Source: a virus | DNA length: 22,323 nucleotides | Virus record (IMG/VR): IMGVR_UViG_3300034418_009039 | Location: 1 to 22,323 of that record | Direction: 5' to 3' (one strand) | Shown here: positions 3,259 through 22,247 of the stretch, in pieces | Layout of the letters: every line of letters begins with the position of its first letter | Numbering within the stretch: the stretch's first letter is position 1 | The notes under the pieces: model-generated | The model's input: the letters and a program-made list of their open reading frames with translations, nothing else | What the model was told of the DNA's origin: nothing | Databases searched by the model: none | Translations under genes and position numbers: made by a program

Positions 3259-3269
3259 TAGTGTTCCTA
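3259..3269 (-). promoter_or_regulatory. Late-promoter-like motif TAGGAACACTA
   Basis: The minus strand reads TAGGAACACTAG followed by TCTAGCTTTT, 20 nt ahead of the fibre ATG. The first TAG is at the same time the stop codon of the upstream 94-residue gene. Confidence 0.6.
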
Positions 3270-3551
3270 GTCAAAGCTGCCGCCATCCGGTGGGGCTCCG
3301 TCGGAGACCCCGCTATCAAAGTCTCCTCCGCCCCAGTAGGTTACCCCTCCTCCAGCCCCTCCTCCTCCGGCAACCACCCGAACAAATCCATTCTGATCCA
3401 GTGAATATAATTTAACGGCGCCGGCCTCCCTGCCGATGACAATCTCGCCGGGGACTATGGCGTCACTGCCCCCTGCGCCGATAGCACTCTCGATCAGTGA
3501 CTGTTCGTCTACGGAGTTTTTGAGAACAATCTTATCAGGGAAGACAGCCAT
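3267..3551 (-). CDS. Small structural protein, 94 residues
   Basis: The N-terminal half, MAVFPDKIVLKNSVDEQSLI followed by GGSDAIVPGEIVIGREAGAV, looks like a compact beta domain of the kind found at the N-termini of phage appendage proteins. The C-terminal third is a glycine-rich linker (GGGGAGGG) ending in an acidic Gly/Asp tail (GGGDFDSG to DGGSFD). No enzymatic motif is visible. It sits between the 381-residue cysteine-rich gene and the fibre gene and is probably a minor virion or adaptor protein. It has its own upstream motif 20 nt ahead, and its TAG stop is part of the next motif. The gene call is solid; the function is not known. Confidence 0.75.
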   Translation of the reverse strand: MAVFPDKIVLKNSVDEQSLIESAIGAGGSDAIVPGEIVIGREAGAVKLYSLDQNGFVRVVAGGGGAGGGVTYWGGGDFDSGVSDGAPPDGGSFD

Positions 3552-6304: not shown

Positions 6305-8590
6305 TGGAGCGAACAGGTCGGCATCAATGACCGTTGCGCCTGCTGTCACGAGACTGCCCAGGAACTCGATAGGGATACCGCCATCCCCTTCTGTGTCCAA
6401 AAGGTCTCCGGGACCCACGATGAAACCTGTGCACCAAATTGTCAGTGTAGCACCGGGCTCGGCGACAAGGCCGGTTGGGGTGATCGGTAGTATGCCATTT
6501 TCGCCCCAGAAATCTTTAGTAACTGCAGTTGTTACGTCAATATTGACTTCCCAGTAGTAGCTTCCGCTGTCTACGATAGTCTCGCCTCCGATTGAGATGT
6601 CGCCGCCCGGACCAGCGGGAGGGGTTCCGCCGCTACCCATATCGGGACGTGAGTCGCCACTGAGATTTGATGGAATCGTTATCGTGCCATTGGAAAAGCC
6701 CCCCCAGATTCCACTGGTCGCAACAACCCCTTCCGAGGCATCGAGCCCCCAACTGCAGGCATCCATTCGTAAGGCCGAGATTTTACCGCTGCGCGGATCG
6801 TAAAAACGGAAGGGCTTTCCGGGGCGCCAGTTGCTCACGATGTCATCGCGAAGCGTTTCTGCTACGTTGATTCCATACGCATCACCGAGTACAAAGCTAC
6901 GCAGGTAGTAACTGTATGCGTTGACTACGCTAGCGATTTGACTATCGTTCTCGAACAGTACGGGGACGGGCATCGATTCTTTTACAACATACGGCCCAGC
7001 AGCGTTTGGTGGCGTGATGTAATTTGAGCTGAGCACAATCGTGGTGGTGCGCTCAGTGGTGCTAGTGGTGACGGTATTAGCTGTATCTGGGCGGATTGGG
7101 TTTGCGGTAATTGTTGTAGAAATTCTACGTTCGTGAGTCTTGATACCAGAAAGAGCGTCGATGTTTCCGTTAATTCCAGACCCCCTGGTCGTACTACTAC
7201 TCCAGGTATAGGTGTCTTGAATTGTCTGGTTTCTACCGTATATGTACTCAGTCGTTTGCCGTGTTACACGATACATTGAGGTAGGATAAATGTTTCTCCA
7301 GAAGGTACCCTCGCCTCCGATTTCGCCGGAGCGATAATCGCTCGGGATCGCGCCGGAAAGCCTTGTAGCATAGTTATCGGTGACCGTCTTACTTAACTCT
7401 CCAGCAGCGCCGTAGTAATTTGTAACTGTGGAGTATGATTGTTTGACGTTATTGAGTCCTTCCATTTTACAGCCGCCGTTCGGGCTGCAGGACGTAGCAC
7501 TTAATGATCGACAATATGCCATTTTGTCCGCATAGTACTGCTGATTAACCTCCATGGCAGGGCCGTACGTCTCAGAATAGGTATCGCTCAACTGCGCGGA
7601 AGGGCCGGAATAGGTACTACGAGACAGGGACGTCTTGGTGACAGGAACGTAAGTGGTTTGCTGTCTTGTTTCGTAGTCCTCTGAGCAGGAATCGATCTCA
7701 CTGCCGCCAGGGGTCGGTGAATCGGAGGGGCCAGAACTCGGGAGGTCAGTACTTGGAGGAATTGGAGAATTGCCACAACCGCTTGTTTTCGCGGGCGGCT
7801 TAGGCCTCGGTGCTGGCGGCCTCGGTTCCTGGGGTTCGCTCTCGGGGAGCTCAGGCGGCTTGCGAATAAACAAGGTCGCAGGGTACTGTAGAAAGTAGTG
7901 CGACAGGGTTTCGGTAATCTCAATTTTCCCACTCTGGTTGGTCGCAAGCGCATCTGAAGGCACTTGATACGACAGCTCTATCTGATCGGGGATTGCGTTT
8001 CCGGCGGCCAGAGGCGAGACAGAAAGGGCCGTGGTTCCATATACGGAAACCCACTCGCCCGCGGCGCTGCCGGCAAAGCTGTCGCCGTCAAAGAAGTCGC
8101 CCTGGACGAGTGCTCCCTGATTATCCTGGAACAGATACTTGCCTGCAGCGGCGAAACTGGCCGAGACGTTCGCGTAAGTGCGCTGAGCGGGATCGAGGGG
8201 AACGGGGGCCAGGTCAATGAATTCGCTCGTATCGTCTGTCAGAGCCGCCAGAGCAAGTCTGCAGCCCACCTGAACCAGCAGTTCGTCGCTCTGGGGCTCG
8301 TAGGCGGTAGAGATGACGTACAGAAGCCCACGAGGGTGTCTAACGGTGCCCAATCCTGGCGAGGAGATATTGACGATAACCTCATGGCCGCGCTTGAACG
8401 CATTGCGATCATAATCCTCCATTGACGGCATCTCGCCATAGTTGCCAAAGACAAGGTCTCCCGTCGTAGAAATCAAGCCGTTTTTATTGGCACTAGCGTC
8501 GGAGCAAGTGAAAGAAACAAAGTGGCTAGAAAAGTTTACTCCATTGATCGTTACAGACTCGAAACGAGTAGCATTACCAAGATAACCCAT
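6302..8590 (-). CDS. Large tail-tip / baseplate-hub-like protein, 762 residues
   Basis: Residues 1-240 form a folded domain with strand-like stretches (SVTINGVNFSSHFVSFTCSD, RGHEVIVNISSPGLGTV). Residues about 244-297 are a strikingly Pro-rich linker (PPELPESEPQEPRPPAPRPK, then PSSGPSDSPTPGG). The remaining 460 residues are rich in Thr, Ser, Tyr and Asn, typical of extended beta structure in tail tip and receptor-binding proteins. It lies downstream of the tape measure where siphoviruses keep tip and hub genes. A strong Shine-Dalgarno, GGAGG, overlaps the end of the preceding gene, and the ATG at 8588-8590 lies one base past that gene's TGA. It probably links the tail tube to host binding. No catalytic motif is recognised. 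Confidence 0.75.
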   Translation of the reverse strand: MGYLGNATRFESVTINGVNFSSHFVSFTCSDASANKNGLISTTGDLVFGNYGEMPSMEDYDRNAFKRGHEVIVNISSPGLGTVRHPRGLLYVISTAYEPQSDELLVQVGCRLALAALTDDTSEFIDLAPVPLDPAQRTYANVSASFAAAGKYLFQDNQGALVQGDFFDGDSFAGSAAGEWVSVYGTTALSVSPLAAGNAIPDQIELSYQVPSDALATNQSGKIEITETLSHYFLQYPATLFIRKPPELPESEPQEPRPPAPRPKPPAKTSGCGNSPIPPSTDLPSSGPSDSPTPGGSEIDSCSEDYETRQQTTYVPVTKTSLSRSTYSGPSAQLSDTYSETYGPAMEVNQQYYADKMAYCRSLSATSCSPNGGCKMEGLNNVKQSYSTVTNYYGAAGELSKTVTDNYATRLSGAIPSDYRSGEIGGEGTFWRNIYPTSMYRVTRQTTEYIYGRNQTIQDTYTWSSSTTRGSGINGNIDALSGIKTHERRISTTITANPIRPDTANTVTTSTTERTTTIVLSSNYITPPNAAGPYVVKESMPVPVLFENDSQIASVVNAYSYYLRSFVLGDAYGINVAETLRDDIVSNWRPGKPFRFYDPRSGKISALRMDACSWGLDASEGVVATSGIWGGFSNGTITIPSNLSGDSRPDMGSGGTPPAGPGGDISIGGETIVDSGSYYWEVNIDVTTAVTKDFWGENGILPITPTGLVAEPGATLTIWCTGFIVGPGDLLDTEGDGGIPIEFLGSLVTAGATVIDADLFAP

Positions 8591-19629: not shown

Positions 19630-20127
19630 TCAGTTGATGGGGTGGCGTTGGAGATAGTTAACAGCCCTGAGCAAACCATTGAGGTTATCCCCAAGCAGTC
19701 CCAGGCCACAATTACAGGAGCTACAAAGCATACCCCTAGGCTTACAGGTCTCGTGGTCATGGTCAATATGGAAAGTACCTTTGGGGGCAGCCTTCTCTTC
19801 AATTCCGCAGATCTCACAGCGGCCAGCGGCCCTATCTCTTAATGCCTCTAGCTCCTGCTTGCTTTTTAAGCCGTATTTGCAGTACCGGCAGTAATCGCGA
19901 CAGCACTCCTTAGAGCAGAATTTATACGCCCTAGAGCAGTTTTTATGATATCGCTGATGACTCTTTTGACACCAGCCGCAAATATTTGATGGGCTATCCT
20001 CCAACGCCTTCTGTCGCTGTCTTAGACGATACATCTTGCCTTCTACTACCTTGCGGCACTTCTCCGAGCAGTAAACGTGGTTTAGGCGCTTTGGCTCGAA
20101 CGGTGAATCACATAACTTGCAGAGCAT
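19630..20127 (-). CDS. Endonuclease VII-like (HNH/His-Me) nuclease with zinc knuckles
   Basis: From the ATG at 20125-20127 the protein has 165 residues. The C-terminal domain carries CEIC at 104-107, FHIDHDHETC at 119-128, RGMLCSSCNCGLG at 131-143 and GDNLNGLL after that, the recognised signature of T4 endonuclease VII-type recombination nucleases. Cys104, 107, 135 and 138 hold zinc, and the His-rich strand binds the catalytic metal. The first 85 residues are filled with CxxC-type knuckles (3-6, 20-24, 50-53, 71-75, 80-83). A GTG start at 20256 is possible but would run through repeat DNA. A GGTAAACTG motif 23 nt before the ATG supports the shorter form. Branched DNA resolution, or nicking as a mobile nuclease, are both possible. 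Confidence 0.85.
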   Translation of the reverse strand: MLCKLCDSPFEPKRLNHVYCSEKCRKVVEGKMYRLRQRQKALEDSPSNICGWCQKSHQRYHKNCSRAYKFCSKECCRDYCRYCKYGLKSKQELEALRDRAAGRCEICGIEEKAAPKGTFHIDHDHETCKPRGMLCSSCNCGLGLLGDNLNGLLRAVNYLQRHPIN

Positions 20128-20149
20128 AATCTCGCATGGGGGCTTCTTC

Positions 20150-20158
20150 CAGTTTACC
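20150..20158 (-). promoter_or_regulatory. Late-motif-like GGTAAACTG
   Basis: The minus strand reads TCGGTAAACTGGAAG, 23 nt ahead of the ATG at 20127. It fits GGNANACTR at the same distance as the other copies. Confidence 0.35.
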
Positions 20159-20220
20159 GACCAAAGGCATGGGGGGATCGTATAGGTTTCCTTGTGAGCA
20201 AGAGAGGAGGGGCTACCTGA

Positions 20221-20810
20221 GTTAGCTATACTAACTGTAGCCCCTGGGGGGTACACTTAGTGGCGCACAGTTAGCTATACTTAGTGGCGCACAGTTAGCT
20301 ATACACAGCGGCGCACGAGTAGGCTATACATAGCGAGTGCACGAGTAGGCTATACATAAGGGGTGCACGAGTAGGCTATACTGAAGCCGCCGATGTAACA
20401 TGAGAAAAGTATAACAAACTCGCTGCTAATTAGCAGGGGGTTTGTATAGCCTACCCCGGCGCACAGTGGGCTATACTAACCCTCGCTACCCTGTGCCACT
20501 AAGTATAGAAAATTATTGCGCACAGTAAGCTACACCTACCCCGGCTAGATAGCGTGGGGTTTGCATACCCTACCCCACGGGGCAGTAAGCTATACATAGC
20601 CGCGCACGGTTCGTTATACAATCATCGGAACATTGCGGCCAGGTTAGCATACCCTACCCCGGTGAATGTAGGGGCAGGTTTGCATACCCTACCTCGGCGC
20701 ATGTACACGCCGGTTTGTATAGCTTACTGTTCGCGAAGTAATTTTTTTTTTCTTGTGAAAGTATGCTGGGTTTGTATAGCCTACCCCTCCCACAGTTTGT
20801 ATACTCTACC
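20221..20810. repeat. Cluster of about 18 copies of a GTAGGCTATAC-like element, both orientations
   Basis: Ten copies read rightward, near 20221, 20270, 20294, 20319, 20345, 20371, 20466, 20525, 20585 and 20609. About eight read leftward as GTATAGCCTAC or GCATACCCTAC, near 20444, 20502, 20565, 20649, 20683, 20717, 20774 and 20800. Rightward copies are spaced 24-26 bp where regular and are joined by GGCGCACA-like words. The core contains TATACT or TATACA, so each could act as a -10 or as a binding site. No gene is visible here. A run of ten T lies near 20743. Confidence 0.85.
20410..20448. repeat. Long imperfect palindrome with perfect 14-bp centre
   Basis: The centre CTGCTAATTAGCAG (20423-20436) is perfectly self-complementary. 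Flanking arms TATAACAAAC and GTTTGTATA extend the dyad to about 39 bp with small mismatches. It could be a cruciform, a protein site or an origin element. Confidence 0.65.
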
Positions 20811-20841
20811 TGCCGCTAATCTATTCTCTATTCTTTATACG

Positions 20842-21537
20842 ATGTAATCAGCTATCTATTCTTAATAGATAACGATTGGGGTTTGTATTATTTATAAATA
20901 GTAATCGGCTATTTATTCTTAATAAATAACGATTAGGGTTTCTATTATTTATATTTAAGGATTAGGGTTTGTATTCTTAATAAGCAAGGATTAGGGTTTG
21001 TATTCTTAATAAGCAAGGACTAGGGTTTGTATTATTTACACTTAAGGATTAGAGTTTGTATTCTTTATAAACAAGGACTAGCGTTTGTATTATTTATACA
21101 TAAGGATTGAGGTTTGTATTCTTTATAAACAAGGATTAGGGTTTGAATTGTTTATACATAAGGATTGAGGTTTGTATTCTTAATACTTAAGGATTAGGGT
21201 TTGTATTCTTTATACATAACGATTAGGGTTTGCATTATTTATAAACAAGGATTAGGGTTTGTATTGTTTATACATAACGACTGGGGTTTGTATTCTTAAT
21301 ACTTAACGATTGGGGTTTGTATTGTTTATACATAAGGACTGGGGTTTGTATTGTTTATAAACAAGGATTGGCGTTTGTATTATTTACACATAACGATTAG
21401 GGTTTGTATTATTTACACATAACGATTGGAGTTTGTATTATTTATACATAAGGATTGGAGTTTGTATTATTTATACATAAGGACTAGCGTTTGTATTGTT
21501 TACACTCAAGGATTGGGGTTTGAATTATGATATCGGT
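20842..21537. repeat. Tandem array of a 29-bp repeat, about 24 units
   Basis: Units begin at 20928, 20957, 20986, 21015 and then every 29 bp without exception to 21508, that is 21 units in exact register. Three more degenerate units lie at about 20842, 20871 and 20900. The consensus begins AAGGATTAGGGTTTGTATT and continues NTTTATACAT. GTTTGTATT is nearly invariant. Variation is confined to a few positions, mostly between two alternatives: G/C at 3, T/C at 6, A/G at 8, A/C/G at 20, and the AT-rich end. The units at 20957 and 20986 are identical. The period is not a multiple of three and stop codons abound, so it is not coding. There are no spacers, so it is not CRISPR. Confidence 0.95.
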
Positions 21538-21539
21538 GC

Positions 21540-21561
21540 GGCGCACAGTTTGTATAACAAA
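21540..21561. repeat. Isolated copy of the first repeat family, with TTTGTATAACAAA dyad
   Basis: GGCGCACAG followed by TTTGTATAACAAA repeats the joining word and the core of the 20221-20810 cluster. The last 13 bases form a perfect dyad. The 29-bp array is therefore flanked on both sides by members of the first family. Confidence 0.6.
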
Positions 21562-21588
21562 TCCTAGTGCAATTTACTGCCGCACGAA

Positions 21589-21608
21589 AATAGGTATTTG
21601 TACCTATT
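21589..21608. promoter_or_regulatory. Operator-like dyad AATAGGTA-TTTG-TACCTATT
   Basis: Two perfect 8-bp arms are separated by four bases, directly ahead of the rightward operon. A possible -35 TTGATA overlaps its right end at 21607-21612, with AT-rich -10 candidates near 21629-21638 (TAATCA or CATAAT). A bound repressor would block this promoter. A second, 19-bp identical copy of the left part lies at 22248-22266. Confidence 0.65.
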
Positions 21609-21698: not shown

Positions 21699-21839
21699 AT
21701 GGCCACTACTGTTCGTTATACAAACGCCGCCGGTATGTCCGCCGTTCAGCGTGACGCTCTCCTTCAACTTATCGGTGAGCTGTATGCTGCCGGTCGTAAG
21801 ACTGAGGCTAAAATGGTCGCCACTCTTCTCTGGGCTTGA
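21699..21839 (+). CDS. Small early protein, 46 residues
   Basis: The start ATG at 21699 has AAAGG eight bases upstream. The protein begins MATTVRYTNAAGMSAVQRDA and then forms one strong helix, LLQLIGELYAAGRKTEAKMV, ending ATLLWA. No family is recognised, but the compact helical form and position as first gene of a short rightward operon are typical of phage early proteins that act on the host. It resembles the middle of the 67-residue protein at 18211-18414 over LQL-LY-K. The leader from 21609 is about 90 nt. Confidence 0.7.
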   Translation: MATTVRYTNAAGMSAVQRDALLQLIGELYAAGRKTEAKMVATLLWA

Positions 21840-22122: not shown

Positions 22123-22138
22123 GTACTACCAGTAGTAC
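22123..22138. promoter_or_regulatory. Palindrome GTACTAC-CA-GTAGTAC
   Basis: Two perfect 7-bp arms stand around CA just past the terminator, followed by another GTACTA word. There is no gene between 22081 and 22267, so this may be a binding site for a dimeric regulator. Confidence 0.45.
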
Positions 22139-22247
22139 AAACGTACTAGACAGTGAACACCCCCCCTCCATCCTAGCACGGGCAAGGCGCCATTCTGGGC
22201 CAGTCGTCAACATTTCTTCACACAAGACCCATAAGCCAGACTGATGG

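Follow-up and report, generated by a model that had tools for sequence, protein, structure and literature searches.

A 29-bp tandem array and adjoining inverted elements upstream of cyanosiphovirus late genes may form one binding-site cluster

The array and its surroundings

The window analysed here (22,323 bp) is the complete IMG/VR virus record IMGVR_UViG_3300034418_009039. Its major tail protein is 88% identical to the counterpart of Synechococcus phage S-CBS2 and 82% identical to that of S-CRES3, hence the window represents a fragment of a cyanosiphovirus related to both. The leftward genes are mostly structural (scaffold, tape measure, major tail and neck proteins). A non-coding tandem array at 20852-21530, termed A array in the following, lies in the gap between these late genes and a rightward group of small genes, so that it lies in a divergent control region as already described in the initial annotation. 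That annotation limited the feature to the array and thereby missed, at its left edge, an adjoining field of inverted elements which share a half-word with the array units (B field). The whole non-coding region spans ~1.5 kb, the A array being only half of it. The contig stops 0.8 kb right of the array and therefore lacks the early genes. The features of the region are as follows.

19630..20256, minus strand: gene for an endonuclease VII-like protein, the first leftward gene beside the region; the true start may be an ATG near 20127
20215..20820, no strand: B field, ~17 imperfect dyads (GTTAGCTATACTAAC; GGTTTGTATAGCCTACC) in both orientations, 50% G+C
20439..20482, no strand: two B elements that face each other and form a composite, with one similar composite in each of the related loci L017 (616) and L022 (411)
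20827..20938, minus strand: decayed left-hand units with a 1-bp offset, the array edge most like related locus L100
20939..21518, minus strand: A array, 20 full 29-bp units in exact register, (TATAAATAATACAAACCCTAATCCTTATG)n on the late-gene strand, 29% G+C
21519..21530, minus strand: truncated 21st unit, register kept
21545..21562, no strand: isolated B-like element CACAGTTTGTATAACAAA, separated from the B field by the array
21700..21839, plus strand: first rightward small open reading frame, 45 aa, without family match

Tandem Repeats Finder delimits the array at 20857-21528 with a period of 29, 23.2 copies and a score of 721, and also gives a nested period of 116 (4 x 29). Core words within the array follow each other 20 times at a spacing of exactly 29 and then once at 57. 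Hence 20 full units and a truncated 21st are in exact register, whereas the decayed units at the left are 1 bp off, and the initial count of about 24 units at an exact 29-bp period is slightly generous. The decayed units include two short perfect palindromes, TATCTATT-CTT-AATAGATA and TATTTATT-CTT-AATAAATA. At lag 29 the self-identity of the array is 0.79, compared to a median of 0.29 over other lags. Its G+C content amounts to 28.3% as opposed to 52.3% for the window, without a separate AT-rich segment. The word GTTTGTAT occurs 23 times in the examined stretch of 1.36 kb and twice elsewhere in the 22-kb window. As initially reported, GTTTGTATT is nearly fixed and the variable columns mostly alternate between two bases.

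Stop-free stretches reach at most 40 codons in any of the six frames, which excludes a coding sequence, and a CRISPR array is excluded by units arranged head to tail without unique spacers, both in line with the initial annotation. Scans for tRNAs and Rfam families gave no match. Promoter-like matches in the array correspond to one weak match multiplied by the repeat; dyads and divergent genes are present. Moreover, an assembly artefact is unlikely since neighbouring units all differ, the true copy number being accessible with long reads only.

The B field is connected to the array by sequence. If one mismatch is tolerated, the half-word GGTTTGTAT, typical of A units, has 7 occurrences in the B field, compared to an expectation of 0.36 and a maximum of 3 in 300 shuffles.

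Constraint on the units

All 20 full A units are distinct. Their mean pairwise identity is 0.82, and adjacent units are barely closer to each other (0.828 at lag 1). Nevertheless 16 of the 29 columns are invariant, and no indels are found in 580 bp. For comparison, arrays were simulated under neutrality via segmental duplication, deletion and uniform mutation and matched for identity. At least 16 invariant columns were obtained in 5.4% of the runs and 20 distinct units in 0.8%, whereas both together did not occur in any of 778 simulated arrays. A star-like model yields at most 9 invariant columns. Since no simulated array combined the two properties, position-specific constraint on the A units is likely. 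The earlier view that an exact unit length in spite of substitutions reflects constraint and not recent slippage is thus supported.

Control regions of related phages

Relatives were collected by the major tail protein (80 loci) and by alignment of g134, a late protein of 134 aa (66 loci). For 15 chosen loci, local alignments of the A region to the non-coding DNA in syntenic position were computed and compared with 25 second-order Markov controls per locus. L030 and L038 (z-score 14.5 each), L100 (7.0) and L104 (5.8) stand out, whereby these values are descriptive and not probabilities, since each is based on 25 shuffles and alignment scores become inflated in repetitive AT-rich DNA. Values near 4 for L143 and L050 stem from AT-rich alignments and were not counted. 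In a separate test using a position weight matrix, L030, L100 and L038 rank highest; here the top score was used, since with the first threshold no locus had at least three matches. On the basis of these alignments, L030, L038, L100 and L104 hold faded, mostly scattered pieces of A units at the corresponding place.

In L030 an ungapped match of 66 bp, located on the opposite strand, covers two units and keeps their 29-bp register. This locus also has pairs of cores at a distance of exactly 29 bp (432/461 and 843/872), on both strands. As in the window, an endonuclease VII homologue follows immediately after the region in L038. The match of L143 is to the B field (z 14.6). Like the window, all five cyanosiphovirus contigs have these control regions upstream of the late operon; the first four share the core words with it and L143 the B elements. 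In contrast to the window, their copies are scattered or arranged in other tandem units, and the 20-fold exact array is found in none of them. The order of AT-rich repeats, B elements and late genes is common to the window, L143, L017 and L022. L017 and L022 carry other arrays at the corresponding place, with units of 33 bp and 20 bp, respectively, and one composite B-like element each on the late side. Co-variation of array unit and B half-site across the window, L017 and L022 is not claimed, as it concerns three sequences judged by eye.

Wider searches were performed with patterns derived from the unit. In IMG/VR the degenerate unit pattern gave no match, and a shorter pattern matched six stretches, none of them in a related siphovirus. 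Two cores 27-31 bp apart gave 23 matches but no similar array, most of them being coding Asn-Thr repeats (AAT ACA AAC). The lack of a similar array among these matches weakens the initial interpretation. The unit pattern found no match in GTDB genomes. With the 278-aa neighbour protein as query no match was obtained in IMG/VR, and a prophage search with the major tail protein returned a single metagenome-assembled contig only.

One copy of GTATAAATAATACAAACACCAATCCTTGTTTAT, which closely resembles the window unit, is located upstream of a structural gene of a T4-like cyanomyovirus in L091 (about 1595-1630) and L094, and includes the T4 late-promoter word TATAAATA. It looked at first like a shared promoter or a transferred element. 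However, these records contain no further copy and blastn against the phage collection gave no relatives, so that it is merely mentioned here.

Further elements were noticed as well. At 22134-22147 the window contains one match to the cyanobacterial LexA-box consensus RGTACNNNDGTWCB, with 0.25 matches expected by chance. Similar palindromes lie near the corresponding junction in S-CRES3 (three), L104 and L113. L113 6161-6300, on a contig shared with L050, consists of three tandem 44-bp units with a LexA-box-like palindrome and GATAATGATAATCATTCTC, the latter being Fur-box-like. AATAGGTATTTGTACC occurs twice in the window (21589 and 22251), the copy at 21589 within the palindrome AATAGGTATTTGTACCTATT; similar sequences are found near small genes in S-CRES3 and resemble operators of a small-gene regulon. 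A block like CCCCTCTCAGAATCTCACAAAATTTCTC recurs immediately ahead of the late genes in L009 (about 7185-7215), L030 (about 1180-1215), L104 (near 1640) and L113 (7187-7441), possibly representing a late promoter or leader.

Possible functions of the region

With moderate confidence we read the array and the B field as one cis-acting binding-site cluster for a single phage-encoded DNA-binding protein which would act on the divergent operons. That one protein recognises both A and B is suggested by the constrained direct repeat adjoining a field of inverted half-words. The protein would bind the B dyads on the late-gene side and load along the A repeats, probably cooperatively, such that a large nucleoprotein complex forms and governs transcription of both divergent units. 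The long tandem form may represent a local amplification of a site that is kept as scattered copies in some relatives.

Several observations speak against this, in addition to the descriptive nature of the z-scores. No binding protein was identified, and the contig is devoid of early genes. Mutational hot spots and gene conversion could mimic position-specific constraint in the A units. For L017 and L022 the arrays show no match to the A unit (z 0.4 and -1.6), and agreement with the B field is modest (z 3.4 and 2.1). According to the initial annotation a conserved role would be unlikely if close relatives lack the array. This is partly the case: in L023, with a g134 identity of 88%, the equivalent gap is short and lacks similar sequence, and the gap of S-CRES3 holds other sequence without similarity to the array. 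Moreover the stretch examined upstream of the late genes in S-CBS2 is occupied by other genes and contains no core words. Judged by these comparisons, the feature is patchy and fast-evolving among relatives. Such a distribution speaks against the sequence being needed universally but not against a lineage-specific function.

Iterons and a sponge, both proposed initially, are not separable from an operator cluster by sequence alone. An origin of replication is the main rival reading, although less probable: the A units would be iterons for a phage initiator, the AT-rich DNA would be unwound there and the B dyads would serve as operators of the initiator. Two observations are consistent with such an origin: S-CRES3, a relative, has genes of its own for a replication protein, a helicase and a primase, and the array repeats one sequence head to tail in 20 full units that are conserved at particular positions. 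However, iterons of plasmids as a rule keep in phase with the helix (PMC5043065), while 29 bp correspond to 2.76 turns at 10.5 bp per turn and only every fourth unit (116 bp) is back in phase. In S-CRES3 palindromic repeats are located beside the replication gene (3260-3328) and again at 29691-29784, hence the origin of the group may lie elsewhere. Relatives without the array likewise argue against an origin. Cumulative GC skew in S-CRES3 merely tracks gene direction and was therefore dropped as origin evidence. Based on the period out of helical phase and the S-CRES3 repeats beside the replication gene, a regulatory cluster is favoured over an origin. The S-CRES3 (OQ587941.1) palindrome itself, ~ACTACCCAACCGTTGGGTAGT, occurs in 3 copies at the first site beside gp3 and in 4 at the second (L009 3692-3785), and is a candidate origin or operator. 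Separately, sets of direct repeats with 21-22 bp per unit, ~4 to 6 in a set, were noticed in L106 (3320-3400), L131 (1198-1276), L126 (2973-3078) and L113 (2632-2764), ~4 to 5 kb upstream of g134. Those of L106 and L131 are alike, the others different; they are possibly true iterons.

Iteron plasmid origins with inverted-repeat operators (R6K, pSC101 and P1 type) also combine constrained direct repeats in AT-rich DNA with adjoining inverted part-copies, whereas the window has more than 20 copies, a 29-bp period out of helical phase, ~17 dyads and no known adjoining initiator gene. The origin of the PLE phage satellite (RepA_N iterons, PMC7145576) is likewise an element of the phage world with repeat families in a long non-coding region, but its sequence is unrelated and its repeats are bound by a characterised RepA, while no such protein is known for the window repeats. 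The origin of Vibrio cholerae chromosome 2 also unites two kinds of repeated sites in one control region (RctB 12-mers and 39-mers, PMC5395669). Again the sequence is unrelated, and the second kind of site in the window is an inverted-repeat field.

Selectively neutral satellite DNA, produced by slippage or unequal crossing-over in a non-coding gap and refilled with different repeats per lineage, would explain the different arrays at the corresponding place in L017, L022 and others as well as the missing array in L023 and S-CRES3. We regard it as unlikely, given that the neutral simulations did not reproduce the 16 invariant columns together with 20 distinct units, indels are lacking and the core words recur in non-tandem form in syntenic DNA of diverged relatives. 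A titration sponge for a host or phage DNA-binding protein would be compatible with one constrained site in high copy number, and the out-of-phase period is irrelevant to titration. Yet the unit contains no sequence recognised as a known host operator, the GTDB search was negative and a placement at divergent promoters is not needed, so that this role appears very improbable. Least plausible of all are a partition site or a repetitive non-coding RNA, two earlier proposals that gained no evidence. Some plasmids use long arrays as centromeres, an analogy in favour of partition, but no partition genes are found among the window proteins examined, the rest of the genome being missing. As to an RNA, the predicted minus-strand transcript folds better than 20 shuffles (z -3.9), whereas the plus strand does not (z 0.4); repetition of a single unit alone affects such scores, and there is no Rfam match. 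Transcript structure was hence dropped as evidence.

Taken together, the region is real, probably functional and fast-evolving, new in sequence but of a general kind already known. The initial interpretation is supported in part and should be extended to the B field. Tentatively, the gap upstream of the late operon might be an exchangeable, fast-evolving switch in which regulator dyads and array evolve together, with a lineage-specific array and a constant order of parts. Little is known about how cyanosiphoviruses control their genes and where they start replication, and the open-access literature searched contains nothing on these repeats. If the array is a binding platform, it would point to an unknown phage regulator or initiator, for the finding of which it is a ready probe, and it would mark the control region as changing much faster than the adjoining structural genes.
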